Assembly: GCA_949300325.1 (NCBI GenBank)
Contig: CASGDQ010000057.1
Span: forward strand, 1 to 64,000
Origin: an uncultured Spirochaetales bacterium
GTDB lineage: Bacteria > Spirochaetota > Spirochaetia > Sphaerochaetales > Sphaerochaetaceae
Reading direction: 5' to 3'
Length of the DNA stretch: 64,000 nucleotides
This document shows positions 6,712 to 26,432 of this stretch, one piece after another. Position 1 is the stretch's first letter; each line of letters begins with the position of its first letter. Under the pieces are notes generated by a model. That model did no database searches, was not told where the DNA came from, and worked only from the letters and a program-made list of their open reading frames with translations. Position numbers and translations under genes: made by a program.

Positions 6712-6714
6712 TAA

Positions 6715-7059
6715 TCATACCTTGCCGAGAATCATCAGGGCAGTGATGAAGCCGAATACGACGAGACCTTCAGCAAGACCGATGAAGATCAGGGCGTTGC
6801 TGGCGATTTCAGGCTTTTCCGAGATGGCGCCCATAGCTGCAGATCCGACGTTCGAGATTGCAAGGCCCGCACTGATAGCACCAAGTCCGAATGCAAGAGC
6901 GGCTGCAAGGCAAATCCATGCTGCATTGCTGTTTCCAGCCACAACCTCCTCAGCTGCAGCATAAACCACTGGCGAGTAGATGAATGCTGATCCCAAAAGG
7001 AGTACGAGCGTCAAAAATAACGAAAGCGATACTTTTCTCTTAAAAGCAAATGCGGTCAT
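6715..7059 (-). CDS. atpK: V-type ATP synthase subunit K (membrane ring)
   Basis: This is the rotor-ring proteolipid, 114 residues. Two hydrophobic helices (about 46-77 and 88-111) form a single hairpin, and the ion-binding carboxylate is Glu97 in GLAEGLVVFG. The Gln in helix 1 and the Ser/Thr beside the Glu that mark Na+-binding rings are not seen, so H+ coupling is the simpler reading, as inference only. The first ~36 residues look like a signal sequence (KRK, hydrophobic stretch, VVYA-AAEE), which is long for a two-helix c subunit. AGGAGGG precedes the ATG. Confidence 0.95.
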   Translation of the reverse strand: MTAFAFKRKVSLSLFLTLVLLLGSAFIYSPVVYAAAEEVVAGNSNAAWICLAAALAFGLGAISAGLAISNVGSAAMGAISEKPEIASNALIFIGLAEGLVVFGFITALMILGKV

Positions 7060-7080
7060 ATAAAGACCCTCCTAATTTAT

Positions 7081-9060
7081 TCAATTGGCTTTGACCCTGC
7101 CGCTCAATCCGATAGGACTGTAGGCAAAGCCATGACCAGTAAAATACTTTGTGAAGAACTCGTAGTAATTGAGTCTGAGGCTGTTGATTCCTGCGGAAAG
7201 CCCTTCCAGAACTATTACGAGCAGATTTCCCAATATCATGATCAGGATATAGCAAACAATATTGCCTGTCATTGCAGCCATATCCTCGAAAGCTGTCATC
7301 AGGGAAACATGCGCTATTCCAAGACCAGCTACACGCATGAAGGAAAGCGTATTAGCCAACAATCCGGAAAAGATCTCCAATATCTCGATCAGAGATTCCA
7401 TCACTGTATTGATTATAAGCTGGGAAACGCTTTCCTTGTGCCCTTTGCGTTTTTGGATAACGAAATGCACAGGTTCCTTGAGAAATATGAGGACCAGGGG
7501 GATAACCACAGCAGGGGCAAGCCAAGGCGCAGTCGGGAATTCCTTATACCCGCCAGCTACGAAACCGAAGCCGAACCATACGCCCACAGCATAAAGCACA
7601 CCGCCCACAAGCCCGTTCTTATCAAAGATAAGCTCAAAATATCTTTTTTTCCTAACAAGATTTATCCAGTTCAATACAAGGCCTGTCGCTATAACAATTA
7701 TTCCAAATTTGATGGTAATGCCCAAAATGTCATACACATCCTGTATCAAACCTTCTCCGCCGTAGCCATTTACTACGCTATGGTAATTGAACCAAAGAGC
7801 GGGAATCCAAGAAAAGCCGAAACAGGAGCCGAACAAAAGTCCGCCTACCATGCTTGCAGGCCCTAGATAAATTAAAAGGGAACAGAGATATCTGCTTATC
7901 AGGCCATCCTTTGCCAAAGGATGCTTCTTATACCAGGATTTACCTAAAAGGCCGATCAGCAAAAGGACAAAGCCCTGTCCAAGGTCAGCAAACATCAGCA
8001 TGAACATTACTATGTAAGCCACTGCTGTAAACGGTGTCGGATTGATCGAGCCATATTCAGGCGTGCCATAGTTGTTTACAATATGCTCAAAGGGCTTTAG
8101 GAAAGAGGGGCTGGTCATGGAAACCGGGACCTGCTGCCTCTCAACAGTCTCTGCGCTCTTGCTTTCTATGATGCATTTACCCTTGGTGGCATCAAAGATG
8201 CAGTCATAAACCGTCTGATAATCATCCTCGGGAACCCATCCGGAAAAAAGAGTTGTATTCTTAGTATAAGAGAAATAGGATTCAACCGATTCGCAGAGCT
8301 CGTGAAGCCTTACAACCTTCCACATGGAATCAAGCTCGTCCTTCTTTTCCTTGATCTTATCAGAAACCTCGAGCCTGAGCTTCTCAAGCCCGGCCTTATC
8401 AGAGGCTATCCTCTTTTCCAGCTCCTCGCTGCATCTCTCATATCCTTTCTTCTGCTCGGAGGCATCGCTGGTTTCTGTCCAAGAGAACTTATCCAATATC
8501 TCATTGGTCCTGCTGGAATCCCTCTTCAAAGAAAGTGTCACAATAGGATCCCTGTCCGCAAGCACCACAGCTCCCGTAGAGACTATTCGGTTTACAAAAT
8601 CTTCTCTCCTGAGCCCTACTGAACCGACACGGAGATCGAGATATTCCCTTTTGTTTTCTGTGACATATTTCAGCATCTCGGTGTTCTTCAAAAGGCGCTG
8701 GTTCACCGTCTTCTGATTATCCTTGATACCCTGAAGCGCAATAGTCAGCCTGTCAAGAAACCTTCTGATCTTATCTATATCCAGCTCAGGAGTCTTCTCC
8801 AAATCCACCCCCGCGAGGCTTGGAACATCCAAATCAGCCTGTCTGTAGAGTGTTTCAATCCTGACGCGGAAATCAGCAAGGGTCTGGCTGCTTATATCGG
8901 AACTGTGCCGGCTGAGCTTCTTCATGCTCTCCTTGTCCAGATCGCCGATGCTGACAAAGTCCATAACCCCCTTCTCTAGAAGATTCCTGACAACCTTGTC
9001 CTTATCTTCATCAAGCACGACTGCGGTGATTATCCGCATCTTGCGAGTGAACATGCTCAT
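7081..9060 (-). CDS. atpI: V-type ATP synthase subunit I (a-type stator)
   Basis: This is the membrane stator subunit that carries the ion half-channels, 659 residues. The first ~340 residues are soluble and coiled-coil rich. The second half has about seven to eight membrane segments, including FADLGQGFVLLLIGLLG and the conserved SFMRVAGLGIAHVSL helix with the essential Arg. The start was set at the ATG (MSMFTRKM) because it follows AGGGAGGG and overlaps the stop of atpC as ATGA. The longer open frame to 9093 has no such signal. Confidence 0.97.
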   Translation of the reverse strand: MSMFTRKMRIITAVVLDEDKDKVVRNLLEKGVMDFVSIGDLDKESMKKLSRHSSDISSQTLADFRVRIETLYRQADLDVPSLAGVDLEKTPELDIDKIRRFLDRLTIALQGIKDNQKTVNQRLLKNTEMLKYVTENKREYLDLRVGSVGLRREDFVNRIVSTGAVVLADRDPIVTLSLKRDSSRTNEILDKFSWTETSDASEQKKGYERCSEELEKRIASDKAGLEKLRLEVSDKIKEKKDELDSMWKVVRLHELCESVESYFSYTKNTTLFSGWVPEDDYQTVYDCIFDATKGKCIIESKSAETVERQQVPVSMTSPSFLKPFEHIVNNYGTPEYGSINPTPFTAVAYIVMFMLMFADLGQGFVLLLIGLLGKSWYKKHPLAKDGLISRYLCSLLIYLGPASMVGGLLFGSCFGFSWIPALWFNYHSVVNGYGGEGLIQDVYDILGITIKFGIIVIATGLVLNWINLVRKKRYFELIFDKNGLVGGVLYAVGVWFGFGFVAGGYKEFPTAPWLAPAVVIPLVLIFLKEPVHFVIQKRKGHKESVSQLIINTVMESLIEILEIFSGLLANTLSFMRVAGLGIAHVSLMTAFEDMAAMTGNIVCYILIMILGNLLVIVLEGLSAGINSLRLNYYEFFTKYFTGHGFAYSPIGLSGRVKAN

Positions 9061-10151
9061 AACAGTCCCTCCCTTATCCTGGATTCGGACCACTTATAAT
9101 ATTTGGCACTCAAAATCGCTCTGATCATCCTGTCCTCCTCCTTATATAGAAATAGATATGCAAGGGTGATGCCTATCGTGAAAGGCTTGCCCGAAAGTAT
9201 CTTTGTAAATTCCTTTTTCCTGGTACGCCCGAGATACTCCTCCATCATCAGGATATGGTTTGCGTTCTCATCCCTTGTGGTCATCTCGTCGTCATTCTTC
9301 CTAATATCAGCCAAATCCGCCATCAAAGCAGGATACTTCCTTCTTACTACTGTGCGGAGAGCCTCCGTGGGATCAGAAAGGGAGAAAAGCTTCTTCCTCT
9401 CTACCTCCTGATATATTCCCCCGTAAGGGATCATTACCTTCTCCAGATCCTTCGGATCGAGATGGTGATATGAAGAATACCTTATGAAAAGAAGTATGTT
9501 TTTAAGATCCATATCTACAAGATATATGTTCTCGCTGACCTCTCTATCCTCGCCCTTTAAAGAAGAGATGGAAGTAAAAAGCCGTTTGAACCAAAGATGA
9601 TCCAATGCTATTTCCAAAGGAAACAATCCGGAAAGAGACAGCTTTTCAAGATCAAAAAGCGAAAACACATCGTAATACGGAGTATCCTTGACAGAAGAAA
9701 GGATGCCCTCGTAATCCCTGGCGTTTATTATGCCGTTGTAGTTTATGTCGTTGACTATCTTCTGCTTGCAGATATAGCTGCTTCTATAGCTTATCTGGTG
9801 ATGGCGCACTATATTCGAATACCAAAGCCTGACCGCATTCTTGAGATTATCTATCTCCACCTTTTCTAGGAGGATGGACACAAATCCCACTTCACGGTCC
9901 TTAAGATAGCGGGCTATCTCACGATGGACTTCTATCTCCGCTTCGAGCAGCGCCAGCTCCACCTGCTGCAAGTCTCCAGTGCTGTCATATACCCGTACAA
10001 GTTCCGAATATCTGGTATCCTTCAGGGTTCCTATCGATTCAACAAGTGAAGGAGCTTTTATCATCGCCTCTAAAAGCGTGGATTGATGCATCTCTCCGAT
10101 ACGTGCACGGAGCTTTGCATTTATAAAAGCATACTCACTTACCTTGCCCAT
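9057..10151 (-). CDS. atpC: V-type ATP synthase subunit C (ring-shaft connector)
   Basis: A 364-residue funnel-shaped subunit that joins the V1 shaft to the K ring (subunit d/NtpC family). Typical features are the early AFINAKLRARIG segment, repeated YSELVRVYD / YYDVFSLFD / YSSYHHLD helical repeats, and a C-terminal KPFTIGITLAYLFLYKEED stretch. AGGGGAT precedes the ATG and the start overlaps the end of the H/G subunit by 17 bases. Here C lies upstream of I, an unusual position. Confidence 0.92.
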   Translation of the reverse strand: MGKVSEYAFINAKLRARIGEMHQSTLLEAMIKAPSLVESIGTLKDTRYSELVRVYDSTGDLQQVELALLEAEIEVHREIARYLKDREVGFVSILLEKVEIDNLKNAVRLWYSNIVRHHQISYRSSYICKQKIVNDINYNGIINARDYEGILSSVKDTPYYDVFSLFDLEKLSLSGLFPLEIALDHLWFKRLFTSISSLKGEDREVSENIYLVDMDLKNILLFIRYSSYHHLDPKDLEKVMIPYGGIYQEVERKKLFSLSDPTEALRTVVRRKYPALMADLADIRKNDDEMTTRDENANHILMMEEYLGRTRKKEFTKILSGKPFTIGITLAYLFLYKEEDRMIRAILSAKYYKWSESRIREGLL

Positions 10152-10473
10152 AGATATCCCCTATCTCAAGAATGCGCTTGATGACCCGCTCGCTGGAACG
10201 CTCAATAACATCCTTATCTGTAACAGACGGATCCTTTTCTATCTCAAGCCGCTGGCGCTCATAATCCTCAAGATGCTCGTCAAGCAGCTTTTTCTGGGCA
10301 TCAATCTCTTCTTCTCCAAGCGACCTGACCCGGTCTATTTCCTTCTGGATATAATCTTTTTTCTCCGTCTGGGCATTGAAAACAATATCGCGGGCCTGCT
10401 TCTCGGCATCCTCAACGATTTTAACAGCGGAGTCTTCCACTTCAAGGATATTATCTATGATATCACTATGCAT
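10135..10473 (-). CDS. atpH: V-type ATP synthase subunit H/G-like peripheral stalk protein
   Basis: A 112-residue, almost wholly helical and highly charged protein. Heptad-like stretches (IVEDAEKQARDIV, KKDYIQKEIDRVRS) match the archaeal-type AhaH / bacterial subunit G family that pairs with subunit E in the peripheral stalk. It is the first gene of the operon, with AAGGAG six bases before the ATG. Similarity in this family is weak, so position and coiled-coil character carry much of the call. Confidence 0.8.
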   Translation of the reverse strand: MHSDIIDNILEVEDSAVKIVEDAEKQARDIVFNAQTEKKDYIQKEIDRVRSLGEEEIDAQKKLLDEHLEDYERQRLEIEKDPSVTDKDVIERSSERVIKRILEIGDIYGQGK

Positions 10474-10555
10474 TTCATACTCCTTATAGCGTTACTTTCT
10501 GCTTTTTTATCCCGCTTGTCAACAGAGAAAAAAACTTGATAAAAAGCAAGAAAAT

Positions 10556-10582
10556 GTAAAAAAGGGCAGCTTCGCCACCCTT
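10556..10582 (-). terminator. rho-independent terminator after tRNA-Pro
   Basis: On the minus strand a 9-bp stem (AAGGGTGGC / GCTGCCCTT, with two wobble pairs) and GAA loop are followed by six T. It lies ~50 bases downstream of the tRNA and upstream of the V-ATPase operon start, so it separates the two units. Confidence 0.75.
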
Positions 10583-10632
10583 TCCTCCGACCCCATCTAA
10601 AAAGAATGGGGAGAACAAAACTAAAAATGCAT

Positions 10633-10706
10633 TCGGGCAAGGCGGATTTGAACCGCCGACCCCAAGTCCCCCAGACTTGTACGCTAAACCCCTGCGCTAT
10701 TGCCCG
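10633..10706 (-). tRNA. tRNA-Pro (anticodon GGG)
   Basis: The minus strand folds as a full cloverleaf. Acceptor CGGGCAA pairs with TTGCCCG. The D arm is GCGC/GCGT. The anticodon arm is CAAGT/ACTTG with loop CTGGGGG, giving anticodon GGG. The T arm is GGCGG/CCGCC with loop TTCAAAT. The discriminator is A and CCA is not encoded. Acceptor and anticodon both fit proline. Confidence 0.97.
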
Positions 10707-10860
10707 CAACATGATGTATATTACAGACCATTTGGATTATTGTCAAAGCCTTAATGAAAAATTTCCGCTCCGTCATTAAAAAAAATTGCATCCCCCTCAC
10801 TTTCCCTTATTTCCTCTTTTGCTGTAAAATTCGTTAACCCATACCATAAGGAGAAGGAAA

Positions 10861-12444
10861 ATGCCTGTTTCTGAAGAATGCGACATTCTAGCCAGAGTTG
10901 AAAACCTATGTATCGGTTTCAAAGACGGAAACGGCAGGAATGTGGTCGATGACATCTCTTTCTCCATCAAAAAGGGAACGATCACCGCATTGGCCGGCAG
11001 ATCAGGATGCGGCAAGAGCATAACCGCTTTAGCACTGATCGGAATGCTTGGATATAAGAAAAATGCTTATGCAAAAGGAAGAATCACTTTTTATAGCAAA
11101 GAATGCAATGTTGATATGCTTTCTGGTGACAAAAAAGTGCTGCAGGAAATAAGGAAGCACCACATTTCCATGATTTTCCAGGATACGGGCGCTGGGCTGA
11201 ATCCGACACAGAGAATCGGCGCACAGATGAAAAGAGCTGTAAAGCTGAAAGAGGGAATCGGAAAAAGAGGCGCCATCATGAATGAAAGGGTTGAAGAGCT
11301 TTTAGCGGAAGCTGGGCTTGATGCCAGAAAGGTATTCAGCAAATATCCGCATGAACTTTCCGGCGGCATGAAGCAAAGGGTTGCAATCGCCATGAGCCTC
11401 ATAGGAGAGCCCGATCTGATCATAGCGGATGAACCCACAACCGCACTGGATGCATCAACACAGGAAGGGATACTGAAGCTGTTAGAAAAGCTTAAGAGAA
11501 ATCATGGCTGCGCAATACTCATAATCAGCCATGATATATCCTTGCTTAAAAGGATTTCGGATGAGATCCTCTTCATGGAGAATGGTAGGATAGCCGATAG
11601 CAGCGGGATGGAAAGGCTTTTCTTTCAAAATGACAGAATAAGAATCAGTGAAGCTTCCGAAAAAAAAGAAAACAAGGAAGTTCTTATCGTGAACCATCTT
11701 GAAAAATCCTTTCCAAACGGATTCAAACATAAAAGCAAAGGCACTTTTGTCCTTAAGGATGTTTCATTTTTTATAAAAAAAGGCGAAGTTTTTGCAATTG
11801 CCGGCAAATCCGGATGCGGTAAAAGCACGCTGGCAAAAGCAATCATGCGCCTCATTCCTACAGATAACGGTGAAATCCTCTTTTACAATACGGACATAAC
11901 CAAATGCGGTAAAAAGGAGTTCTTTTGCATCAGACCGAAAATCCAGATGGTTTTTCAAGACACCTACTCTAGCCTAGATCCCCTGATGCCTTCAAAAAAA
12001 CAGATTATCGAAGCTGTCCAGGATAACAAGATAACAAAAAAGGGAGAAGAGGATGATTACGTATCCTTTCTGCTTTCATCTTGCGGCATAACAGAAGAAG
12101 AGGCGCAAAAGCGCCCAACAGAGCTTTCAGGCGGACAGCGGCAAAGGATATCGATTGCAAGAGCTCTGGCGTTGAAACCAGATCTTCTGATTGCAGACGA
12201 GCCGGTCTCGTCTATCGACGGAATCATGAAAAAGCAGATCATCGATTTGCTTATGGAACAGAAAAGAAAGAACGGGCTGTCCCTTATGATAATCAGCCAT
12301 GATTTGAGCTTTTTAAGGAAAAACGCCGACCGTATAGCCATAATGCAGGATGGCAGGATAATCGAGATAGATTATGCGGAAAACATCTTCACCCATCCCA
12401 AGCAGCCATATACAAGACAGCTTGTTTCTGTAATTGAAAACTAA
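10861..12444 (+). CDS. orphan two-domain ABC ATPase, oligopeptide/nickel type
   Basis: A 527-residue protein with two complete ABC ATPase domains of the DppD/DppF (OppD/OppF) type fused in one chain. Domain 1 (residues ~10-255) has Walker A GRSGCGKS, signature LSGGMKQR and Walker B DLIIADEPTTALD. Domain 2 (~275-525) has GKSGCGKS, LSGGQRQR and DLLIADEPVSSID. Such fusions energise peptide, nickel or glutathione importers (YejF/GsiA-like). AAGGAGAAGG precedes the ATG. No permease or binding-protein gene of that class is adjacent: the neighbours are a tRNA and a TauE-type gene on the other strand. The partner must be elsewhere in the genome. Confidence 0.92.
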   Translation: MPVSEECDILARVENLCIGFKDGNGRNVVDDISFSIKKGTITALAGRSGCGKSITALALIGMLGYKKNAYAKGRITFYSKECNVDMLSGDKKVLQEIRKHHISMIFQDTGAGLNPTQRIGAQMKRAVKLKEGIGKRGAIMNERVEELLAEAGLDARKVFSKYPHELSGGMKQRVAIAMSLIGEPDLIIADEPTTALDASTQEGILKLLEKLKRNHGCAILIISHDISLLKRISDEILFMENGRIADSSGMERLFFQNDRIRISEASEKKENKEVLIVNHLEKSFPNGFKHKSKGTFVLKDVSFFIKKGEVFAIAGKSGCGKSTLAKAIMRLIPTDNGEILFYNTDITKCGKKEFFCIRPKIQMVFQDTYSSLDPLMPSKKQIIEAVQDNKITKKGEEDDYVSFLLSSCGITEEEAQKRPTELSGGQRQRISIARALALKPDLLIADEPVSSIDGIMKKQIIDLLMEQKRKNGLSLMIISHDLSFLRKNADRIAIMQDGRIIEIDYAENIFTHPKQPYTRQLVSVIEN

Positions 12445-12470: not shown

Positions 12471-13187
12471 TTACATATTAGTAACGATTAAAAAAACTCC
12501 AGAAACCAATATCATCACAACTACGATTTTTCCAACTATTTGCTCATTGAGCATACGACTGCTTTTCATACCACCAAATAGTCCCAAAAGCATGAAAGGC
12601 ACCAATAATAAAAAAGTCTTAAGCACTTTAAAATTGATTATCGCTAAACCAGCGTATAATATCATCCGAAAAGTATTTTCAACAAGAAATACAACACAGA
12701 TATTAGCTTTGAATTCCTTGCTATCTTCTGTAATTTTGGCAAAATATGCACCAAGAAGAGCACCAATACCATACAGACCACAAAGAATTCCAGACAAAAA
12801 GCCAATTAAATAAAGAATGATGCGGCTATTTGGGCCGCATTCTTTTTGTTCTTTTCTGAAAAGCATTTCAAAAGCAACAATGATAAGAACGAAGCCACAT
12901 GCTATCTTTATTATCTGGCCATCAACATTTTTTAATAACACTACGCCAAGTATGCTGCCGATGATCACCAATATGGATATGGGTATGCATATTTTCGCGC
13001 GTATGTATTTTCTTTCCCGGAATGCGATGATGCAATTTGTGGGATATCCGAGCAAAAGTTCCACGGGGGAAATCGCTATATTATCATTTCCTAAACTGAG
13101 AACGGAAGTAAATACAAGGGTGTTTGCAAAACCACAAAGCCCTTTCACAAAAAATGCGAGCAAAGATGCAATTATCCAAATCAACAT
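12471..13187 (-). CDS. TauE/SafE-family anion exporter
   Basis: A polytopic membrane protein of 238 residues with about seven to eight hydrophobic segments. It has the two family half-repeats (N-terminal FFVKGLCGFANTLVF, second half LSGILCGLYGIGALLGAYF). TauE/SafE proteins export sulfite, sulfoacetate or other small organic anions. The start was set at the ATG with AAGGG seven bases upstream, not the open-frame start at 13202, which lacks a ribosome site. It follows the MalG-type permease by ~40 bases on the same strand, so it is probably the last gene of the transporter/2H-phosphoesterase operon and may dispose of a catabolic by-product. Confidence 0.88.
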   Translation of the reverse strand: MLIWIIASLLAFFVKGLCGFANTLVFTSVLSLGNDNIAISPVELLLGYPTNCIIAFRERKYIRAKICIPISILVIIGSILGVVLLKNVDGQIIKIACGFVLIIVAFEMLFRKEQKECGPNSRIILYLIGFLSGILCGLYGIGALLGAYFAKITEDSKEFKANICVVFLVENTFRMILYAGLAIINFKVLKTFLLLVPFMLLGLFGGMKSSRMLNEQIVGKIVVVMILVSGVFLIVTNM

Positions 13188-13226
13188 GCAAACACCCTTC
13201 ATATTACAGGATTTTCTGTTTTGTCC

Positions 13227-14060
13227 TCATTTTACTGCACTATCCATAGAACCCTTGATAAAATATTTCTGCAGACACAGATACAGTATTATAACAGGAA
13301 GAACAGCAATTATTGCAGCTGCAGCAGCTGCCGCCATGTTAGTACTTTCCCCGAAGAAGGTCGACATTGCCAGAGTTATCGTTTTCAGCGAAGGTTTTTG
13401 TAATATATAAAGCTGGAAACTATAATCATTCCAGATTCCGACACCAGTAAGGATCAGGACCGAAGAAACAACAGGCATCATGTTAGGAAGTATGATCCTA
13501 GGGAATATCATGAACTGACTGCATCCGTCTATAAGCGCTGCCTCATCAAGCGATTTAGGGATCGCAGAAATAAAATTAGTAAACATAAAAATCGCAAGTG
13601 GAAGATTATAGGTCACAGACAACACTATTATGCCCCAATAAGTATTAACTCCTTTTAAAGCAATCATCTCCTTATATATTGGGACCAGGACAGAAAGTGG
13701 AGGTACCATCATGACCCCTACAATAAGAGAAAGAACCGTTTTATTAAACTTTGTCTTTCGACGAGCAAGCGGATAAGAAGCTATTGAGCCGATTATAACA
13801 ACAAGAATGACTGAAATCACAGTGATTATCAGCGTATTGTATATAGCAAGTCCGATCTTTCCGTTCTTAAACGCATAAGCATATGATTCAAGTGTAGGTT
13901 CCTTTGGAAATATCCAATGGCTTGTTCTGTCCGATCTTGTTTTAAACGACAAGGAAAGAAGAATGTAAAATGGAGCGAAATAAAATGCACTGATCAAAAT
14001 CGCTACAAGGTTTTTAAGCCAATTGTACCTGCTTTTCAGATTGTTTTTAATTTTAGCCAT
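13227..14060 (-). CDS. carbohydrate ABC transporter permease (MalG type)
   Basis: A 277-residue CUT1-family permease with six hydrophobic segments. The coupling loop ALIDGCSQFMIFPRIILPNM carries the EAA motif that docks the ATPase. The start at MAKIKNN is preceded by AAGGAGATG, and the longer open frame to 14084 is not. It overlaps the MalF-type gene by eight bases, so the two are translationally coupled. No cognate ATPase gene is present in the operon. Confidence 0.95.
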   Translation of the reverse strand: MAKIKNNLKSRYNWLKNLVAILISAFYFAPFYILLSLSFKTRSDRTSHWIFPKEPTLESYAYAFKNGKIGLAIYNTLIITVISVILVVIIGSIASYPLARRKTKFNKTVLSLIVGVMMVPPLSVLVPIYKEMIALKGVNTYWGIIVLSVTYNLPLAIFMFTNFISAIPKSLDEAALIDGCSQFMIFPRIILPNMMPVVSSVLILTGVGIWNDYSFQLYILQKPSLKTITLAMSTFFGESTNMAAAAAAAIIAVLPVIILYLCLQKYFIKGSMDSAVK

Positions 14061-14955
14061 TGTACTGCATCTCCTTTCTCTCAAGATATTTTCTCAGCAG
14101 GATGCTGACCAGCATTATGAAAATGAAGCTTGCCATACCAAGTGCAGCAGAAAAACCTGCTTGCTGAGTACCGAAATAAAGCTCGTTTATAAGCGATGAG
14201 AGGGAATGCGAAGCATATCCTGGACCTCCGTTAGTCAAAGCCACTACCAACCCGAACATCTTAAGTCCGCCGATGACGTTAAGTACAAGACTTGTAGTGA
14301 ATGCCGGCATAAGCATTGGCAGTGTAATATGAATAGTCGACTGCCAAAGATTGGCTCCATCTATGCTCGCCGCTTCCTTGTACATATCAGGAATAGATTC
14401 AAGGCCGGCAATGAAGATGATCATTGTTTTTCCACAATATTCTATTGCGTTAATAAACATTATAATCATTACAGCCCTTATGCCATTGCTCATCCAATCG
14501 ACAGGAGCATGACCAAACAGTTTAACGATATCGTTTATTGCTCCTCTCTCATAAGTAACAAGAAAATACCATATGTAACCGATTATGAGCTGTGCGACCA
14601 TTGCAGGCATGTAAATCAATGTCCTTGCTACTCCACGCAGCAAGAATCGGTTAACAAGCAGCATTGCGAAAGCAAGTCCTAGTATAGTTTGGAGCAAAGT
14701 TGAGCCAAAACCATAAATCAGAGTATTCCTGAAAGCAATGCGTACAGAGTCATCCTTAAACAGGTTGACATAGTTTTTCATTCCCACATATGAATAGTTT
14801 TGCGAATATCCGTTCCAATTTGTAAATGATATGTTTATACCACTTATTATCGGAATCAGGACAAACATGAAAAATAGGATCAATGCAGGAACCGTCATGA
14901 GCGAAAGCGCTTTCGGATCTGATTGAAAAAACCGCTTAATAGAATTCTTTTTCAC
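14053..14955 (-). CDS. carbohydrate ABC transporter permease (MalF/UgpA type)
   Basis: A 300-residue CUT1 permease with six membrane segments and the EAA loop EAASIDGANLWQSTIHITLPML. I set the start at a GTG (MKKNSIKRF) with AAGGGG six bases upstream. The open frame extends to a TTG at 14988, but that TTG lies inside the loop of a perfect 9-bp hairpin and lacks a free ribosome site. The gene lies between the binding protein and the MalG partner. Confidence 0.92.
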   Translation of the reverse strand: MKKNSIKRFFQSDPKALSLMTVPALILFFMFVLIPIISGINISFTNWNGYSQNYSYVGMKNYVNLFKDDSVRIAFRNTLIYGFGSTLLQTILGLAFAMLLVNRFLLRGVARTLIYMPAMVAQLIIGYIWYFLVTYERGAINDIVKLFGHAPVDWMSNGIRAVMIIMFINAIEYCGKTMIIFIAGLESIPDMYKEAASIDGANLWQSTIHITLPMLMPAFTTSLVLNVIGGLKMFGLVVALTNGGPGYASHSLSSLINELYFGTQQAGFSAALGMASFIFIMLVSILLRKYLERKEMQYNG

Positions 14956-14975
14956 CGTTTTCCCCTTGATGAAAA

Positions 14976-14998
14976 CGGGGATTGTCAACCAATCCCCG
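14976..14998 (-). other. intercistronic hairpin after the binding-protein gene
   Basis: A perfect 9-bp inverted repeat (CGGGGATTG / CAATCCCCG, five-base loop) is followed on the minus strand by TTTTC. It lies between the binding-protein stop and the permease start. It probably acts as a leaky terminator or 3' stabiliser that raises binding-protein mRNA over permease mRNA. Confidence 0.7.
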
Positions 14999-15021
14999 AT
15001 CGAAATGGCATGGATGCTGTA

Positions 15022-16278
15022 TTACAGCTGAGCTCTCAAATCGTTGTAGCTCTTCTCCATGATCGAGCAAGACTCTTTAACGGAAATCTCACCGGAGGTC
15101 AGGCCGCCACCGATACTTCGCATTGTTGCCCACATTCCACTAGGCAGCCATTCCCTATCAAAGTAAGGAAGTATTGCAAGATCCTGGTATGTTGCAAAAT
15201 CTTCTGCCAAAGGCACTTCGACATCAACATTCGTAAAAGCGCAAGGCATTCCCGTAGTTTCACAGAAGTACTTGATGTTCTCAGGTCTCGCGATGAATTC
15301 GATGAATACCTTTGCAATTTCAAGGTTCGGGCTGTCCTTCCAGATTCCGTAGCTTTCCCTCTCTCCTCCGATAAGAATCTGCTTGTCGGTTTCGAGATAT
15401 GCAGGGATAGGCATCATGGACAGATCCACATCTGGATTAATGTCCTTAGCGTTAGTAATAACGGACATACCGGAGAATACAAACATCACTTCGCCAAAGG
15501 CAAGTTTTTCAGGAATATAGATCGGATCTGCGGTATTGCAATCCACATTCAGATATCCTCTTTCCTTAAGCTCATACAGGAATCCTGAAACTCTTTCCCA
15601 ATTAGACCAATCGAATGAACCGTCATACAATGCTTCAGAATAATCCTCATCCGTGGCAATAAGCATGGAAGGAGCAATCAAATCCATAAGGTTCGCCTGC
15701 TGTCTCGTATCCTTTCCTGCGATATAAACAGGAATCACACCAAGAGCTTTTACATCCTCGCAGCATTCTAAAAACTCATCAAATGTTCTTGGAACAGAAT
15801 CCCATCCTGCTTGTTTAAGTATGTCCTTGTTATATATGATACCTGTCTGCTCTATGTTCATCGGAACAGTAAGCACATCTCCATTCTCCGTGGAAAGAAT
15901 ATCCTTGGATGCAGAGGCGATATTGTTGACGAAATCAAACTCGTTCAACGGAAGAAGATATTCAGCATATCTCTTTACAGACCAACCATGAGTTGCAAAA
16001 ACATCAGGAAGATCGTTTGCCGCCATCTTGGCTTTCATCAAATTCTCATAATCCTTGGAATAGGAAATGAATTCAACATCTATGCCAGGATTCTCATCCA
16101 TGAAATTGTCGACAAGGGTCTGCATAGCCTCATACTGGAGTTCCGTCGCATTAGAAGCAACGGTGATCTTACCTTTAAGACCATTACTCGATGCAGAACT
16201 TTTCTCACTGCCACCCTGAGCAAATACACATAGGCAGCAGATTACAGCAATGAACAGAATTGATAAAATCTTTTTCAT
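15022..16278 (-). CDS. sugar-type ABC substrate-binding protein
   Basis: A 418-residue family-1 extracellular solute-binding protein. The N-terminus is a signal peptide ending ...CLCVFA, followed by QGGSEKSSAS. There is no proper lipobox, although Cys residues lie just before the cleavage site. The NEQ/EFISY strand, the GWSVKRYAEYLLPL helix and the GIWKDSPNLEIAKVFIEFIA C-terminal region match UgpB/MalE-like proteins. It captures the substrate outside the inner membrane for the two permeases. The substrate is unknown, but the adjacent 2H phosphoesterases point to a phospho-ester or cyclic-phosphate compound. Confidence 0.93.
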   Translation of the reverse strand: MKKILSILFIAVICCLCVFAQGGSEKSSASSNGLKGKITVASNATELQYEAMQTLVDNFMDENPGIDVEFISYSKDYENLMKAKMAANDLPDVFATHGWSVKRYAEYLLPLNEFDFVNNIASASKDILSTENGDVLTVPMNIEQTGIIYNKDILKQAGWDSVPRTFDEFLECCEDVKALGVIPVYIAGKDTRQQANLMDLIAPSMLIATDEDYSEALYDGSFDWSNWERVSGFLYELKERGYLNVDCNTADPIYIPEKLAFGEVMFVFSGMSVITNAKDINPDVDLSMMPIPAYLETDKQILIGGERESYGIWKDSPNLEIAKVFIEFIARPENIKYFCETTGMPCAFTNVDVEVPLAEDFATYQDLAILPYFDREWLPSGMWATMRSIGGGLTSGEISVKESCSIMEKSYNDLRAQL

Positions 16279-16294
16279 TTACTTCTCCTTTTAT

Positions 16295-16978
16295 TTATTT
16301 TTTTCTTGGAATTCTGTTTTTATTAAAAAAGAACATGTCATCAAAGAAAGTTAAGGAAGGTTCAGGGATTTCGAAAGTGAACGTTTCTTCTTTACATTTT
16401 TGATCGAATTCTTTTTTCAAATTCTCTAAATAATCGTTTTCTTCCTTATTAGGCATTCGGATCCCATAAGCAAGACTTATATGAAAACGGTACCTGTCAT
16501 GCCCAGGAAACCTCAAACCGGTAAGGTTGGATACAAAATCCCTCCAATCCCGGATCCGCTTATCATCATCGTATCTGTCAGGATAAAGACCTATGCATAT
16601 GCCGCTATCGAGCCAAAGCTGATCGAACCGCATTACAACTGCCCCGAGTGGAGGAATCTTTTTCCACTGCTCTTCAAGAAAATCGTCAATTTCCGATAAA
16701 GGTGCATCCAGCGGCAATCTATCAGTCCAGTATGGCTTCTTTCTTACCTCGTCACAAACTCCTTCGATTGCTGTCATATGCAGGCTCTCATCCGGCAACA
16801 CTGTGATACAATCCTTTGCAGGTGAACAAGCCAAAAGATCCTTTTGATCTTTCACCCTACGAAACACTTCAGTAGAATGATCCAGCAGGCAGATGATTGT
16901 ATTGCCAGAAAAATGCTTAACGCTTCCGTCCTGGTTGAATTTATGCCCTACAGACTGTCCAAAATTCAAATGCAGCAT
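16295..16978 (-). CDS. DUF1868 2H phosphoesterase-like protein, copy A
   Basis: A 227-residue DUF1868 protein of the 2H phosphoesterase superfamily, whose members open 2',3'-cyclic phosphates or hydrolyse 2'-5' bonds. Both catalytic motifs are intact: H67-M-T69 (DESLHMTA) and H166-I-S168 (YRFHISLAYG). The region GLRFPGHDRYR before the second motif is characteristic. No signal peptide is present, so it is cytoplasmic. AGGAG precedes the ATG. It lies 16 bases upstream of the binding-protein gene and 16 bases downstream of its close paralogue, so it belongs to the transporter operon. A role in processing the imported compound is inference. Confidence 0.88.
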   Translation of the reverse strand: MLHLNFGQSVGHKFNQDGSVKHFSGNTIICLLDHSTEVFRRVKDQKDLLACSPAKDCITVLPDESLHMTAIEGVCDEVRKKPYWTDRLPLDAPLSEIDDFLEEQWKKIPPLGAVVMRFDQLWLDSGICIGLYPDRYDDDKRIRDWRDFVSNLTGLRFPGHDRYRFHISLAYGIRMPNKEENDYLENLKKEFDQKCKEETFTFEIPEPSLTFFDDMFFFNKNRIPRKK

Positions 16979-16994
16979 ATATATCTCCTATAAA

Positions 16995-17669
16995 TTAGCG
17001 TGGTATCCGCTTTGTGTTAAAAAAGAACATATCATCAAAAAATGTCAGCGACGGCTGCGGTACAGAAAACTCGAATATCTCCTTTCTGCACTTCTTGTCA
17101 AAGCAAAACCGTATTTCCTTCAACGCTTCCTTTTCCTCCTTGTCCGGCATCCGTATCCCATAAGCAAGTCCAATATGGAAACGATATCTGTCATGGCCTG
17201 GAAATCTAAGACCGGTAAGATCAGAAATCTCGTCACGCCAATTTCTGATCCTTTTATCATCTTCGTAGGAGGCTGGATATAAGACTATGTTTATACCGCT
17301 GTCCATCCAAAGCTGGTCGAATCTCATTCTGACATTTCCCAAAGCAGGAGCCTTCTGCCATTGGATTTCAAAGTAGTCATCAATTTGTGACAAAGGCGCA
17401 TCCAAAGGAAATCTGTCGGTCCAATACAATTTCTCCCTCACTTCATCACAAACCCCTTCAAGCGCTGTCATATGCAGGCTTTCATCCGGCAATATCGTGA
17501 GACAGGGACCAGCTTTTGAAGAGGCTATGGTATCCTTAAGCTCTTTCACCCTTTGAAAGACACTTGAAGAGGAATCAAGCAGACAAATGAACGTATTGCC
17601 TGGAAAATGCCTCACACTACCATCCTGATTGAACTTCTGACCTACCGCCTTACCAAAAGAAAGACTCAT
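16995..17669 (-). CDS. DUF1868 2H phosphoesterase-like protein, copy B (altered second motif)
   Basis: A 224-residue tandem paralogue of copy A, clearly more than half identical along its length, and the first gene of the operon. Motif one is intact (H66-M-T68), but the second reads H165-I-G167 where copy A has Ser168. Because the Ser/Thr of each HxS/T motif contacts the phosphate, this copy may have lost or changed activity while keeping both histidines. AGGAGCG lies upstream of the ATG. The gene is divergent from the sensor kinase across ~180 bases. Confidence 0.88.
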   Translation of the reverse strand: MSLSFGKAVGQKFNQDGSVRHFPGNTFICLLDSSSSVFQRVKELKDTIASSKAGPCLTILPDESLHMTALEGVCDEVREKLYWTDRFPLDAPLSQIDDYFEIQWQKAPALGNVRMRFDQLWMDSGINIVLYPASYEDDKRIRNWRDEISDLTGLRFPGHDRYRFHIGLAYGIRMPDKEEKEALKEIRFCFDKKCRKEIFEFSVPQPSLTFFDDMFFFNTKRIPR

Positions 17670-17849
17670 TTTCTTTCGCTCCTTTTTTTTAGGATACGGA
17701 AGAAAAAAAATAATAAAATGATACTTATTTAGTAATCGATGAAAAGATTTTAATGTTGAATCACACTATTACAAAAAAATTAACAATATATTATAATTCA
17801 TGAAATTATTTATATTTAAGTTTGCAAATCTTTGTGCTAGCCTGTTAGC
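17670..17849. promoter_or_regulatory. divergent promoter region, 2H/transporter operon and two-component system
   Basis: This is an AT-rich 180-base spacer between divergent operons. For the rightward sensor gene a TTACAA (17769-17774) and TATAAT (17792-17797) pair is spaced by 17. No Shine-Dalgarno is visible before the sensor ATG at 17850. The leftward operon has an SD but no clear -35/-10 that I could choose with confidence. The response regulator product is the obvious candidate to bind here. Confidence 0.5.
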
Positions 17850-19559
17850 ATGACAAAGAAAAAAAACAATCTCTCGCGTCGTCTGATGCGTTACTTCCTC
17901 CTTAGTACCCTGATACCATTTTTTCTTATCGTCATACTCAGTTCGGGCATCCTTCTAGAGTATTATAAAAAAGACATCAACATAATCGCCGATAGTTACA
18001 TAAAGAGTCTGGCAAGAGAGGCTGGACTTTATATCAACCAGCTCAAGCAGATCATAATACTGCCAAGTTTCTCAACTGAAACCGTCAATAAGATCAAGGA
18101 CATCAGAAAAAAAGGCATGGTTGAATATATCGATAAAGCTGAATTCGATACCCTTATGGGGAACCTCATTTCATCAATAAGATATACAGGAAACGATTTC
18201 CACAGCGCCTTGATAGTAACGGAGAAAGACACAATATACTTCAGCTCGAACTATGTTTTTGCAGACCCTCTGCCAAACTATGATTGGACAAAAGAAGAAT
18301 GGTATCAGACCGCCATGAAGAACAACGGCCAGATAATATTCATTCCACCTCATGTCCCGCAGTACTTTGATTCCGGAAAAGATGAAAAAGTGGCTTCAAT
18401 CGTCACAACCATCCGCAACTATATCTCAACCGAACCATATGCCGTGATAAAGATCGATTTCCTCCCTTCTATGATGAACACATACCTTCATCTGGAGGAA
18501 TTCCATGTTCCAAGTGCTATATATGTTGCAGATGAAAACGACAATCTGATATTCCATGAAGCCACGAACAGCAGGATGGAAAATCTCATTTCACTTGATA
18601 ATGGAAAAATAGCAAAGATAAGCAGTTTCGAAGTAAGGCATTTCTCACAGAAAATAGAAGGCACCCCCTACACTCTCAATGTTCTTCTGGATAACAGAGC
18701 AATAATAATCAATTCCATCAAAATCTATTCCATCGGATTGGTTTTATATCTTATCGCTCTATTTACAGCAATCTATCTAAACAGGCGGTTCTCCAACAGG
18801 ATAACCGAACCGATCTCCAGCATGAAGGATCTGCTGGGCCATGTTGAGGTCGGAGATTTTTCCGTACGATATGAACATAAAAAGCAATGGGAATTGGAGG
18901 AATTAGGAAACAGTCTGAATGAGATGGTTGAACAACTTGAAATAATGATAGAGAAGACGTATTTAGCGCAGATAGCAAAACAGGAAGCCGAATACAAGGC
19001 GCTGCTTAAACAAATACAGCCGCATTTTCTCTTCAACACGCTTAATACAATGGTAGGACTTTTATATCAAGGAAGATACGAACAACTCGAAAAAAACATA
19101 ATCTGTCTTTCCGATTTGCTTAGGAATGTATTGAAATCTGATTTGTATTGTACTTTAGAAGAAGAAATAAAATTCATAAACGATTATCTTGTCCTGCAGC
19201 AGAGCAGATTTGAAAATAAATTAAGCTACACTATTGATGTTTCAAAAGATGTAGAACAAATCAGAATCCCAAAGCTTCTGCTCCAGCCGTTTGTCGAAAA
19301 CTCAATAATCCATGGAATGGAGCCCTCAAAAAAAGCATGCCATATACTGATCAAAGCCATTAAAGAAAATAATTCGATAATCATCACCATAAAAGATAAT
19401 GGAATAGGTTTTGATAAGAACAAAATAGATATTTACTCTTCCATAGGTATTTCAAATTGCATAAAACGTTTGAAGCTATCTTATCCTAAAAGCGATATAA
19501 GCATTGACAGCATCCCACATGATGGGTGCACGGTAATCATTTCATTCATGGAGTACTAA
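17850..19559 (+). CDS. YesM/LytS-type sensor histidine kinase
   Basis: A 569-residue membrane sensor. It has a TM1 at residues ~13-35, an extracellular Cache-like domain, a TM2 at ~291-311, a HAMP linker (NRRFSNRITEPISSMKDLL), then a His-kinase domain with the QIQPHFLFNTLNTM motif (phosphoacceptor His392) and an HATPase domain (LLLQPFVENSIIHG, DNGIGFD). This family controls sugar-transporter operons together with AraC-type response regulators. It is divergent from the 2H/transporter operon and four bases upstream of its response regulator, so it probably senses that operon's substrate, perhaps via the binding protein. Confidence 0.94.
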   Translation: MTKKKNNLSRRLMRYFLLSTLIPFFLIVILSSGILLEYYKKDINIIADSYIKSLAREAGLYINQLKQIIILPSFSTETVNKIKDIRKKGMVEYIDKAEFDTLMGNLISSIRYTGNDFHSALIVTEKDTIYFSSNYVFADPLPNYDWTKEEWYQTAMKNNGQIIFIPPHVPQYFDSGKDEKVASIVTTIRNYISTEPYAVIKIDFLPSMMNTYLHLEEFHVPSAIYVADENDNLIFHEATNSRMENLISLDNGKIAKISSFEVRHFSQKIEGTPYTLNVLLDNRAIIINSIKIYSIGLVLYLIALFTAIYLNRRFSNRITEPISSMKDLLGHVEVGDFSVRYEHKKQWELEELGNSLNEMVEQLEIMIEKTYLAQIAKQEAEYKALLKQIQPHFLFNTLNTMVGLLYQGRYEQLEKNIICLSDLLRNVLKSDLYCTLEEEIKFINDYLVLQQSRFENKLSYTIDVSKDVEQIRIPKLLLQPFVENSIIHGMEPSKKACHILIKAIKENNSIIITIKDNGIGFDKNKIDIYSSIGISNCIKRLKLSYPKSDISIDSIPHDGCTVIISFMEY

Positions 19560-19562
19560 AAA

Positions 19563-20537
19563 ATGAAAATATTGATCGCAGATGATGAATCACTTGTATG
19601 TACGATTTTTACCCATCACATAAACCAATATGGTTCTCCTTATGTTTCCTTTGAATTTGTTTGTGATGGAAACGAGCTTATTGAAAAATGCGTCTCCGAT
19701 ACACCGGATCTGATAATAACTGATATTAAGATGCCCAATATGTCCGGTCTTGAAGCAATTGAAGAAATCAGGAAATCATATTCGGACAAGTTCAGGATAT
19801 ACATCCTTTCCGGTTTTACGGATTTTGAGCTTGTCAGATCGGCTCTGCAGCTTGGTGTCGTGGATTATATTCCCAAGCCAATAAAGTATGGACAAATCAA
19901 AGAGCTTCTGGAAAAAGAGGAAAAGCGCAGATACATGGGGCTCGAACTTGAAGATGCTTACAAGATAAATGACGAGGGCCTTGCCCTCCATCTTTCAGAA
20001 ATAATTCAGAAACTGGCCTATTTCTACTCAAATAAGGATAAAAAGAATTTTCTGATATCTCTTGATGAATATAGCAGATTGTCTGCAATGTACTCTACAA
20101 AAATAGAAAGCACTTACTTTCTTGAAAAATTTAATTTTAATTGTGAAAAAGAGGATCAGATAAACGTTCTTAAAAAAATATCAGACGAAGCCTTTATAGC
20201 AGATAACGATCTATCAATTGTTGATAAAATTAAAAACCTGATCAAACAAAATTTTTCAAACGTTATGTTCGGGCTGGATACAGTCTCTGCAGAGCTAGGA
20301 TATAGTACACAATATCTTAGTATGATTTTCAAAAAGGAAACAGGAGAAAACTTCTCTTCATACCTTACAAGGGAACGAATCGACCATGCAAAGAAACTGC
20401 TTATGACGACAAATATGAAAATCAAGGATATTGCTTCCGCTTGCGGCTATAATTATACGAATTATTTTATTAAAGTATTTAACAGACAAGAAAAACTTGC
20501 TCCTGCCGAATGGAAAAACATTATGAAAAATAATTAA
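19563..20537 (+). CDS. YesN-type AraC-family response regulator
   Basis: A 324-residue response regulator with an N-terminal receiver domain (acidic pocket D7-D8, phosphoacceptor D54 in LIITDIKMPN, K105 in YIPKPIK). A linker follows, then a C-terminal AraC double helix-turn-helix (about residues 225-320, GLDTVSAELGYSTQYLSMIF and IKDIASACGYNYTNYFIKVF). It is the partner of the preceding sensor kinase and the probable activator of the divergent transporter/2H operon. Confidence 0.94.
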   Translation: MKILIADDESLVCTIFTHHINQYGSPYVSFEFVCDGNELIEKCVSDTPDLIITDIKMPNMSGLEAIEEIRKSYSDKFRIYILSGFTDFELVRSALQLGVVDYIPKPIKYGQIKELLEKEEKRRYMGLELEDAYKINDEGLALHLSEIIQKLAYFYSNKDKKNFLISLDEYSRLSAMYSTKIESTYFLEKFNFNCEKEDQINVLKKISDEAFIADNDLSIVDKIKNLIKQNFSNVMFGLDTVSAELGYSTQYLSMIFKKETGENFSSYLTRERIDHAKKLLMTTNMKIKDIASACGYNYTNYFIKVFNRQEKLAPAEWKNIMKNN

Positions 20538-24038: not shown

Positions 24039-26432
24039 TTAAACAGCCTTGCTTGTATATGCTTTGATCTTAGCGACCCCTGTAATAACTTCAGCTCTCT
24101 CGCCGTTGTCTATAACAAGTGTCGGAGCCTGCATGATGCCATATTTGATTGCAAGCTCGGGATTCTCCTCTGCATCGATCAGGATATAGGAGACTCCGGC
24201 TTTCTCAAGTTCGGCTTTGGCCACCTTGCAGTTAGGACAGGTCTTAGTGGTGAAAAGCATCACCTTGCCCTGAATGGGAGCCGTTGCTGATGAAGCATGC
24301 TCGCAGCTGGAGGATGAACCGGCTTCATGGTGCAGGACAACACCTTCGTGCGTCAGAACACTTGTTCCGATATTATAGGTCTTTCTTTCCTTGAATTCCT
24401 CGCTCTTTCCGGTATTCCAGTTCTGTACTGGACGATAATAGCCGGTGATTCTGGAATAGACCTCGGTAGCCTTTCCGCACTTGGGGCATTTATAAACCTC
24501 TCCTGAGATGTATCCATGATCCACGCATACGCTGTAAGTCGGGCTGATCGTGTAATACGGGAGCTCATAGTTCTCGGCAATCTTCTTGACAAGCTTCGCC
24601 GCACTCTTCCAATCTGGAAGCTTTTCGCCAAGGAACGCATGGAAAACTGTTCCAGAGGTGTAAAGAGTCTGCAGGCGGTCCTGGACATCAAGAGCAGAGA
24701 AGATGTCGTCAGTGTATCCGACAGGCAGATGCGAAGAGTTGGTGTAATACGGCGCATCACCGTTGCTGCTTGCAGTGATGATGTCTGGGAACTGCTCCAC
24801 ATCGTGCTTTGCAAAGCGGTATGATGTGCTCTCTGCCGGTGTGGCCTCAAGGTTGTAAAGATCCCCATAAAGCTCCTGGTAATCCGAAAGCCTGTTCCTC
24901 ATATGATTGAGCACATCCACAGCGAAATCCTGAGCCTTCTTTTCTGTAAGATCGCAGGAAAGCCACTTTGCATTGAGAGTGCATTCGTTCATGCCGACTA
25001 GGCCGATTGTAGAAAAATGGTTGTCGAAGCTTCCAAGGTATCTCTTGGTATACGGATAAAGACCCTCATCCAAAAGCCTTGTGATAACCTCCCTCTTTCT
25101 CTTGAGGCTGCGGGCAGAAATATCCATCACATGATCCAAGCGGGCATAGAAATCCTTCTCATCCTTTGCAAGGTATCCAAGCCTTGGAAGGTTGATTGTG
25201 ACAACACCGATGCTTCCTGTGCTCTCTCCAGATCCGAAATATCCTCCTGTCTTCTTTCTCAGCTCCCTCAAATCGAGGCGCAGGCGGCAGCACATGCTCC
25301 TGACATCGTTAGGGCTCATATCCGAATTGATGTAGTTGGAGAAATACGGCGTGCCGTACTTGGCTGTCATCTCGAAAAGAAGCTTGTTGTTCTCGGTTTC
25401 GGACCAATCAAAATCCTTTGTTATGGAATAAGTGGGAATAGGATACTGGAAACCGCGGCCGTTGGCATCCCCTTCGATCATGATTTCGATGAAGGCCTTG
25501 TTGACAAGATCCATTTCCTTCTGGCATTCGCCGTAGGTGAAATCCATCTCTTTGCCGCCGACGATCGCACGGACGTCCTTAAGGTCGGCAGGACATACCC
25601 AGTCGAGAGTGATGTTCGAGAACGGAGCCTGAGTGCCCCACCTTGAAGGAGTATTGACTCCATAGATGAAAGATTCGATGCATTTCTTGACTTCACGGTA
25701 TGAAAGGTTATCCACTTTCACAAACGGGGAAAGGTAGGTATCGAAAGAAGAGAAAGCCTGAGCTCCGGCCCATTCGTTCTGCAGTATGCCGAGGAAGTTG
25801 ACCATCTGGTTGCAAAGCGTTGAAAGATGGCTTGCCGGGGAAGAGGTGATCTTTCCGGGGATGCCGCCCAAACCTTCCTGAATGAGCTGCTTGATGGACC
25901 AGCCGGCACAGTATCCGGTGAGCATGGAAAGATCATGCAGATGGATGTCGCAGTTGCGGTGTGCATTTGCTATCTCCTGATCATATACTTCGCTGAGCCA
26001 GTAGTTTGCAGTTATCGCACCGCTGTTGGAAAGGATGAGGCCTCCGACGGAATATGTTACAGTCGAGTTCTCCTTGACTCTCCAATCGTTCAGCTTGAGA
26101 TAATTGTCGACGACGTTCTTGTAATCGAGGATCGTCGAGCGCATGTTCCTGATCTTCTCACGCTGCTTTCTATAAAGTATATAGGTCTTCGCAACCTCGC
26201 CGTATCCAGCCTGGCCGAGAACCTCTTCTACCGAATCCTGTATGTCTTCGACGCTGATCTTGTCGTCTTTGATCTTCTTTGCAAAATTCGCTGTTACTTT
26301 CAAAGCGATGAAATCAATGACATCATCGTTATACTGGGTGTTGGACGCTGTGAATGCCTTTTTAATGGCAGTAGCGATTTTTGAGATGTTGAAATCGACA
26401 ACCGCGCCATCTCTTTTCAATACCTGATACAT
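24039..26432 (-). CDS. nrdD: anaerobic ribonucleoside-triphosphate reductase with C-terminal glutaredoxin-like domain
   Basis: A 797-residue class III ribonucleotide reductase that makes dNTPs without oxygen. An N-terminal ATP-cone (residues ~1-95, KRDGAVVDFNISKIA) is followed by the glycyl-radical enzyme core. A Cys-rich zinc site (CVDHGYISGEVYKCPKCG) precedes the glycyl radical loop RITGYYRPVQNWN, radical Gly ~664. After a Ser/His-rich linker, residues ~725-797 form a glutaredoxin/thioredoxin-like domain with active site TKTCPNC. The fused domain could serve as built-in thiol reductant. GGAGG lies seven bases before the ATG and two NrdR boxes lie further upstream. The activase gene nrdG is directly upstream. 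Confidence 0.96.
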   Translation of the reverse strand: MYQVLKRDGAVVDFNISKIATAIKKAFTASNTQYNDDVIDFIALKVTANFAKKIKDDKISVEDIQDSVEEVLGQAGYGEVAKTYILYRKQREKIRNMRSTILDYKNVVDNYLKLNDWRVKENSTVTYSVGGLILSNSGAITANYWLSEVYDQEIANAHRNCDIHLHDLSMLTGYCAGWSIKQLIQEGLGGIPGKITSSPASHLSTLCNQMVNFLGILQNEWAGAQAFSSFDTYLSPFVKVDNLSYREVKKCIESFIYGVNTPSRWGTQAPFSNITLDWVCPADLKDVRAIVGGKEMDFTYGECQKEMDLVNKAFIEIMIEGDANGRGFQYPIPTYSITKDFDWSETENNKLLFEMTAKYGTPYFSNYINSDMSPNDVRSMCCRLRLDLRELRKKTGGYFGSGESTGSIGVVTINLPRLGYLAKDEKDFYARLDHVMDISARSLKRKREVITRLLDEGLYPYTKRYLGSFDNHFSTIGLVGMNECTLNAKWLSCDLTEKKAQDFAVDVLNHMRNRLSDYQELYGDLYNLEATPAESTSYRFAKHDVEQFPDIITASSNGDAPYYTNSSHLPVGYTDDIFSALDVQDRLQTLYTSGTVFHAFLGEKLPDWKSAAKLVKKIAENYELPYYTISPTYSVCVDHGYISGEVYKCPKCGKATEVYSRITGYYRPVQNWNTGKSEEFKERKTYNIGTSVLTHEGVVLHHEAGSSSSCEHASSATAPIQGKVMLFTTKTCPNCKVAKAELEKAGVSYILIDAEENPELAIKYGIMQAPTLVIDNGERAEVITGVAKIKAYTSKAV

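Follow-up and report, generated by a model that had tools for sequence, protein, structure and literature searches.

A conserved operon linking DUF1868 2H phosphoesterases to an MsmE-like ABC importer in Sphaerochaetaceae, a candidate module for sugar-phosphodiester uptake and cleavage

Introduction

Cytoplasmic cleavage of imported sugar phosphodiesters has been described in two bacterial systems. In Xanthomonas, the 2H phosphoesterase XanP converts imported xanthosan, a cyclic dimer of Gal-1-P, to Gal-1-P, and its activity is lost upon mutation of either the HxT or the HxS motif (PMC12807533). In Agrobacterium, imported agrocinopine is cleaved by AccF (PMC4526662). A related case is the transporter AfuABC, which imports phosphorylated sugars and whose AfuA component binds hexose phosphate (PMC4546632). 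The 2H family DUF1868 (PF08975) has a single solved structure, that of Atu0111 (PDB 2fsq), which is annotated as a protein of unknown function, and a search of 5.39 million open papers found none on DUF1868.

Here we describe a DUF1868-containing operon of an uncultured member of the Sphaerochaetaceae. The initial annotation of this locus knew of no described pathway with such a gene set, but the XanT-XanP and agrocinopine Acc systems are precedents for it.

Organization of the operon

The window, a 64,000-nucleotide stretch of contig CASGDQ010000057.1 (assembly GCA_949300325.1), contains an eight-gene locus at positions 12471-20537, in which the ORF list and a Pfam scan recovered the gene families as first described. 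Coordinates and Pfam families confirm the initially reported layout of six tightly spaced minus-strand genes divergent from a YesM/YesN-like pair. The features of the locus are as follows:

12471-13202, minus strand: TauE/SafE-family exporter, an accessory gene missing in relatives with a single 2H gene (PF01925, 7.6e-26; 91.7 bits against a cut-off of 32.6)
13227-14084, minus strand: MalG-type permease (Pfam scan)
14053-14988, minus strand: MalF-type permease (Pfam scan)
14976-14998, minus strand: hairpin of nine pairs with a short T-rich tail, immediately 3' of the binding-protein gene and ahead of the permease gene
15022-16278, minus strand: extracellular binding protein, MsmE-like, CUT1 (PF01547)
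16295-16978, minus strand: 2H phosphoesterase copy B (PF08975/DUF1868, about 4e-27)
16995-17669, minus strand: 2H phosphoesterase copy A (PF08975/DUF1868, about 4e-27)
17670-17849: AT-rich divergent intergenic region of 180 bp that separates copy A from the sensor kinase and is presumably the control region
17850-19559, plus strand: YesM-type sensor histidine kinase (HAMP and His_kinase)
19563-20537, plus strand: YesN-type response regulator (AraC-type HTH)

Transcription on the minus strand runs from copy A through copy B, the binding protein, MalF and MalG to TauE, with intergenic distances of 16, 16 and 33 bases, an overlap of the MalF and MalG ORFs, for which it should be noted that ORF starts were assigned mechanically, and then 24 bases. 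The plus-strand sensor-regulator pair, which combines a HAMP and His_kinase sensor with an AraC-HTH response regulator as in YesM/YesN systems, is separated from the operon by the 180-bp spacer. The G+C content of the operon is about 39-40%, against about 46% over most of the window. The position of the hairpin just 3' of the binding-protein gene is the usual one for an attenuator raising the binding protein over the permease, and the hairpin is a possible attenuator, hairpin-type sites being no more numerous in the operon region than in shuffles. A promoter scan gave no enrichment above shuffled sequence. The operon genes include no phosphatase, mutase or kinase for a product, and no glycoside hydrolase.

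Two further genes of the window were noted. A plus-strand gene at 10861-12444 encodes a fused double-ATPase OppDF-like protein with no permease or binding-protein genes adjacent, and is kept beside the operon in the relatives G061 and G069. On the minus strand, positions 24039-26432 encode an anaerobic ribonucleotide reductase-like protein with an apparently fused C-terminal redoxin-like stretch (TKTCPNCKVAKAELEKAG...).

The importer

The SBP_bac_1 binding protein and the MalF and MalG permeases assign the importer to the CUT1 (MsmE-type) class. The nearest solved structures of the binding protein are those of Bacillus MsmE (4rk9, 8.3e-82; 4r6h, 2e-71), to which it is about 40% identical over nearly its full length. 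This likeness fits an oligosaccharide-sized ligand and gives no sign of phosphate. No MsmX/UgpC-type ATPase is encoded in the operon, and seven candidates are present elsewhere in the genome, the best of which (G000:C33:9880-11037; 53% identical) stands alone. Given this arrangement, the importer likely uses a shared ATPase encoded elsewhere.

The two 2H phosphoesterases

Both proteins annotated as 2H phosphoesterases belong to PF08975, each with about 95 bits against a gathering cut-off of 21, and they share 70% identity. Copy B carries two intact H-x-[ST] motifs, H67-M-T69 and H166-I-S168. In copy A the first motif, H66-M-T68, is likewise intact, but the second, H165-I-G167, has Gly in place of Ser, so that the description of the locus as encoding two 2H enzymes holds at the family level and copy A departs from it in its second HxS/T motif. 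The HIG motif is identical in G069 and G061, and all other sampled DUF1868 proteins, except the second copies of genus g16, have S/T at this position. Thr or Ser there has been described as universal among 2H enzymes, and the equivalent CNPase variant, T311A, is nearly inactive, its activity not being measurable (PMC4643303). Copy A is nevertheless under purifying selection, with a dN/dS of 0.07-0.11 among three genomes.

The predicted model of copy A (pLDDT 95) has the 2H fold. Its nearest solved structure is 2fsq (phmmer 1e-24; Foldseek 2.1e-16, TM 0.8), followed in the Foldseek search by LigT, Usb1, AKAP18 and plant CPDase.

Conservation within the family

A profile search found PF08975 in 15 of 139 genomes of the family, distributed over three genera. 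All 15 contain, as far as contigs allow, the same core, in which the kinase-regulator pair is divergent from genes for the binding protein, MalF, MalG and 2H protein. The whole core is visible in 12 genomes; in G061 it is split over two contig ends, and in G012 and G059 it is cut by contig ends. Orthologues of the binding protein (58-100% identity) occur in 14 genomes, every one of which also has the 2H gene, while the next-best match has 43% identity, with lower values thereafter. The hypergeometric probability of this overlap is about 3e-18, a value that ignores the relatedness of the genomes. The linkage of the 2H gene to the importer is thus conserved and non-random, and a set confined to the window, which the initial annotation had named as the outcome that would count against it, is excluded by the recurrence of the core, contigs allowing, across the 15 genomes.

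The last gene of the operon is variable. TauE-family genes were found in the window clade (three genomes) and in two g16 genomes, the two types sharing only about 25% identity. They are present in all five assessable paired-2H loci (the locus of G111 is cut off) and in none of the nine single-2H loci. In eight single-2H genomes the gene immediately 3' of the 2H gene belongs to the MgtC family, as confirmed by Pfam in one of them and by near-identical sequence in the others, and in G059 the slot is occupied by a sulfatase-family gene. At this locus (L032, G059:C23, 13056-16245), the 2H gene is followed by the sulfatase-family gene and a LacI regulator. The exporter, initially proposed as part of the set, was therefore rejected as a core component, since MgtC (8 genomes) or sulfatase (1 genome) takes its place. 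The variation of this slot across relatives indicates that TauE is an accessory of paired 2H genes. Of the proposed conserved combination of DUF1868, CUT1 transporter and TauE, only the first two belong to the core. MgtC is also a neighbour of DUF1868 in another phylum, as a Streptomyces plasmid (L111, NZ_CP108270.1, 5668-10319) encodes an MFS transporter, LacI, two DUF1868 proteins and MgtC.

A second importer locus with a 2H pair

Within the genome that contains the window, the binding protein next in similarity (42%) is encoded at locus L088 (G000:C69:50000-61879), where positions 5267-10882 contain genes for LacI, an MsmE-like binding protein, MalF, MalG and two consecutive 2H-fold proteins. 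The latter are about 250 aa each, resemble DUF1868 at their N-termini, contain two H-x-[TS] motifs each, and are both below every Pfam cut-off. Profile comparison relates them to DUF1868 with 97.6% probability, and the solved structure closest to the AlphaFold model (pLDDT 93) is 2fsq (2.5e-8), followed by other 2H enzymes. Six genomes of the genus have such a pair, and in each of them the two genes lie side by side 3' of MalG. In the permease tree, the L088 and window groups form one set, as opposed to the two included MsmE-like loci without 2H genes. Together, the 2H pair and the permease tree support a broader pattern in which MsmE-like importers go together with 2H enzymes. Beyond the genus, this divergent pair was found neither in the plasmids nor in 393 genomes of the phylum (the window's own aside), a draw from which the five further members of the genus carrying it were absent; so far it is thus a narrow family.

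Origin of the HxG partner

HIG recurs in genus g16, where the second 2H gene encodes it and the partner has HIS. The window copies A and B are sisters in the trees (support 98/94, 96/93 and 95/93), and the g16 HIG copy branches far from them. Approximately unbiased (AU) tests of a single HIG clade gave p values of 0.0063 with outgroups, 0.0086 for the ingroup without the motif column, and 0.088 for the ingroup only, so that a single origin of HxG was rejected in two of the three settings. Gene order differs as well, the 2H genes being first in the window clade and after the permeases in g16. Tree placement, AU tests and gene order favour two independent origins of HxG, in the window clade and in g16, with a long-branch caution, since the g16 HIG copy is a long branch represented in the trees by one distinct sequence. 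New here are the loss of the second-motif Ser in a copy A that is under purifying selection and the same change, apparently acquired independently, in one of the paired 2H proteins of a distant genus. Such a recurrent HxG partner opens the regulation or re-specialization of two-histidine enzymes to study.

DUF1868 genes in other lineages

The wider sample, consisting of plasmid records and other spirochaetes, was small and yielded about 14 DUF1868 lineages. In Rhizobium etli, Thioclava and Alloyangia, DUF1868 is located beside a CUT1/Ugp-type importer with UgpC-annotated ATPases, an inositol-monophosphatase-family gene and ROK, and Rhizobium SSA_523 has a similar layout. Other types of ABC importer adjoin DUF1868 in Rhizobium BT04 and CIAT894 and in Deinococcus. 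In Kosakonia the neighbours are an ABC importer, GDPD and ROK, and in Vibrio THAF191 an ABC importer, a phosphohexomutase (phosphoglucomutase/phosphomannomutase) and ROK. In the closed spirochaete genome G261, DUF1868 adjoins an ABC importer, and the closest solved relatives of the importer's binding protein are P5PA, which binds pyridoxal phosphate, and AfuA, which binds hexose phosphate. An ABC importer is not adjacent in 4 of the about 14 lineages, namely an E. coli plasmid, Rhizobium NLR16a, G191 and Streptomyces, where an MFS gene is present. The inositol-monophosphatase-family, phosphohexomutase, GDPD and ROK neighbours point to a sugar phosphate as the product, and the recurrence of DUF1868 with unrelated importers is the main evidence that supports a nutrient-phosphodiester role.

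Two DUF1868 proteins have Tat-like N-termini. The first of the Streptomyces L111 proteins starts with the Tat-like signal SRRMFAKAGG, which suggests that it may act outside the cytoplasm. The other (DRRTFIKSSA) is encoded on E. coli IncF plasmids (L046, NZ_CP070073.1, 7884-8684) near microcin B17-type genes and pemIK, with no importer nearby.

Proposed role

Building on the gene content, linkage, motif state, fold and purifying selection on copy A, all of which are established, we consider the chances to be slightly better than even that the gene set is a module for uptake and cleavage of a sugar phosphodiester. The YesM/YesN-type pair would respond to an external signal by switching on the divergent operon. 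The MsmE-like binding protein with MalF/MalG, and an ATPase from elsewhere, would import a small carbohydrate bearing a phosphodiester bond. Copy B would then hydrolyse the diester in the cytoplasm to a sugar phosphate, as suggested by the family chemistry and by XanP. Copy A may be a conserved, probably weak or re-specialized partner that acts on a second diester or an intermediate, or that assists copy B without catalysis of its own, as a subunit or as a ligand sensor. The product of the final gene, TauE here and MgtC in most relatives, might handle the anion or phosphate load. The initial idea that the locus imports and opens a phosphodiester is supported by the conserved 2H-importer linkage and its recurrence with unrelated ABC importers in other phyla, except for the exporter as a core part.

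Against this role stand the lack of product-processing enzymes in the operon and the 4 of about 14 lineages in which no ABC importer adjoins DUF1868. In addition, a binding protein nearest to Bacillus MsmE, of the oligosaccharide class, possibly carries an ordinary sugar. The operon would then encode a plain MsmE-type oligosaccharide importer, co-transcribed by accident with 2H proteins serving in RNA-end or cyclic-nucleotide housekeeping. The identity of about 40% to MsmE agrees with this, as do the plain sugars usual for YesMN pairs and the distant DUF1868 genes without a transporter neighbour. It is nevertheless improbable in view of the presence of the 2H gene in 14/14 genomes with an orthologous binding protein, the repeated linkage of DUF1868 to unrelated ABC importers, the two divergent 2H genes adjoining the sister transporter, and the lack of a glycoside hydrolase in the operon. 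Somewhat less unlikely is a cyclic polyol phosphate as substrate, for instance the myo-inositol 1,2-cyclic phosphate or glycerol cyclic phosphate that phospholipase C-type enzymes set free, with the 2H protein opening the five-membered ring and a monophosphatase completing the degradation. Classical 2H enzymes open such rings, and the inositol-monophosphatase-family gene lies 3' of DUF1868 in Rhizobium etli, Thioclava and Alloyangia, with their UgpC-annotated ATPases. However, enzymes of that family also act on hexose phosphates, the spirochaete operons lack such a phosphatase gene, the Vibrio phosphohexomutase and the ROK genes at many loci suit hexoses, and the binding protein in the window is MsmE-like.

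Anti-CBASS Acb1 and viral phosphodiesterases share the 2H fold and appear as distant fold matches, so the pair could be viewed as degrading cyclic (oligo)nucleotides in counter-defence or signalling. This is hardly credible, since in all family genomes seen DUF1868 shares an operon with a nutrient importer and no defence genes occur in this operon or in those of family relatives; a phage or counter-defence origin was rejected on the basis of 0 matches to DUF1868 in 50,697 phage records. Compatible with any substrate of copy B is the view that copy A merely decays after duplication and has no role. The missing Ser and the near-inactivity of the corresponding CNPase variant speak for it, but the low dN/dS, the retention of both histidines and the first Thr, the presence of HIG in all three genomes and the HxG pair partner in another genus make it very doubtful.

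Sugar-phosphodiester uptake and cleavage is the reading we retain. The repeated DUF1868-importer linkage turns it into a testable assignment for the family, cytoplasmic cleavage of imported sugar phosphodiesters. If true, feeding on such compounds would be far wider than the plant-pathogen cases and would include gut-type spirochaetes, so that a source of them must exist there. A more elaborate proposal, which we advance tentatively and with clearly less confidence, is that the 2H proteins form an unequal pair of an active enzyme and an HxG partner that evolved at least two times as a non-catalytic or re-specialized subunit, tied to an importer for an unrecognized gut sugar phosphodiester. With the further 2H pair that accompanies the sister transporter and escapes Pfam, this would extend to a family of phosphodiester-sugar importers.

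Comparison with known systems

Atu0111 is 28% identical to copy A and has HxT as its second motif, in contrast to the HxG of copy A. AfuA, the binding protein of AfuABC, is one of the closest solved relatives of the one adjoining DUF1868 in G261, but the transporter class is unlike that in the window. Bacillus MsmE (4rk9, 4r6h) represents oligosaccharide-type import, whereas the window operon lacks a glycosidase; we know of no 2H partner for Bacillus MsmE.

With XanT-XanP the locus shares a dedicated importer and a cytoplasmic 2H phosphoesterase (HxT and HxS in XanP) serving, in the window putatively, nutrition on a sugar phosphodiester, the 2H genes of the window being in one operon with the importer. 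The comparison of XanP (WP_014501370.1) with DUF1868 was by motif spacing alone, the distance between the histidines being 105 in XanP and 93-110 across the DUF1868 proteins examined. The differences are that XanT is a TonB-dependent outer-membrane transporter and the window encodes a CUT1 ABC importer, that XanT-XanP has one 2H gene and the window two, one of them HxG, and that the synthase gene, ROK regulator and plant host of XanT-XanP have no counterpart in the window operon. Neither a TonB-dependent transporter nor a GDE-type synthase is encoded in the operon or in the adjoining genes.

The agrocinopine system AccABCDE-AccF-AccG resembles the proposed module in that an ABC transporter imports the sugar phosphodiester, a cytoplasmic phosphodiesterase cleaves it and a sugar phosphate results. 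Its enzymes are, however, the phosphodiesterase AccF and the phosphatase AccG rather than a 2H pair, an arrangement that the window operon does not share, and its importer differs, AccA binding a pyranose-2-phosphate motif (PMC4526662). Overall, these likenesses suggest that the operon works in the manner of XanT-XanP and Acc, as an analogue rather than an established member of either.
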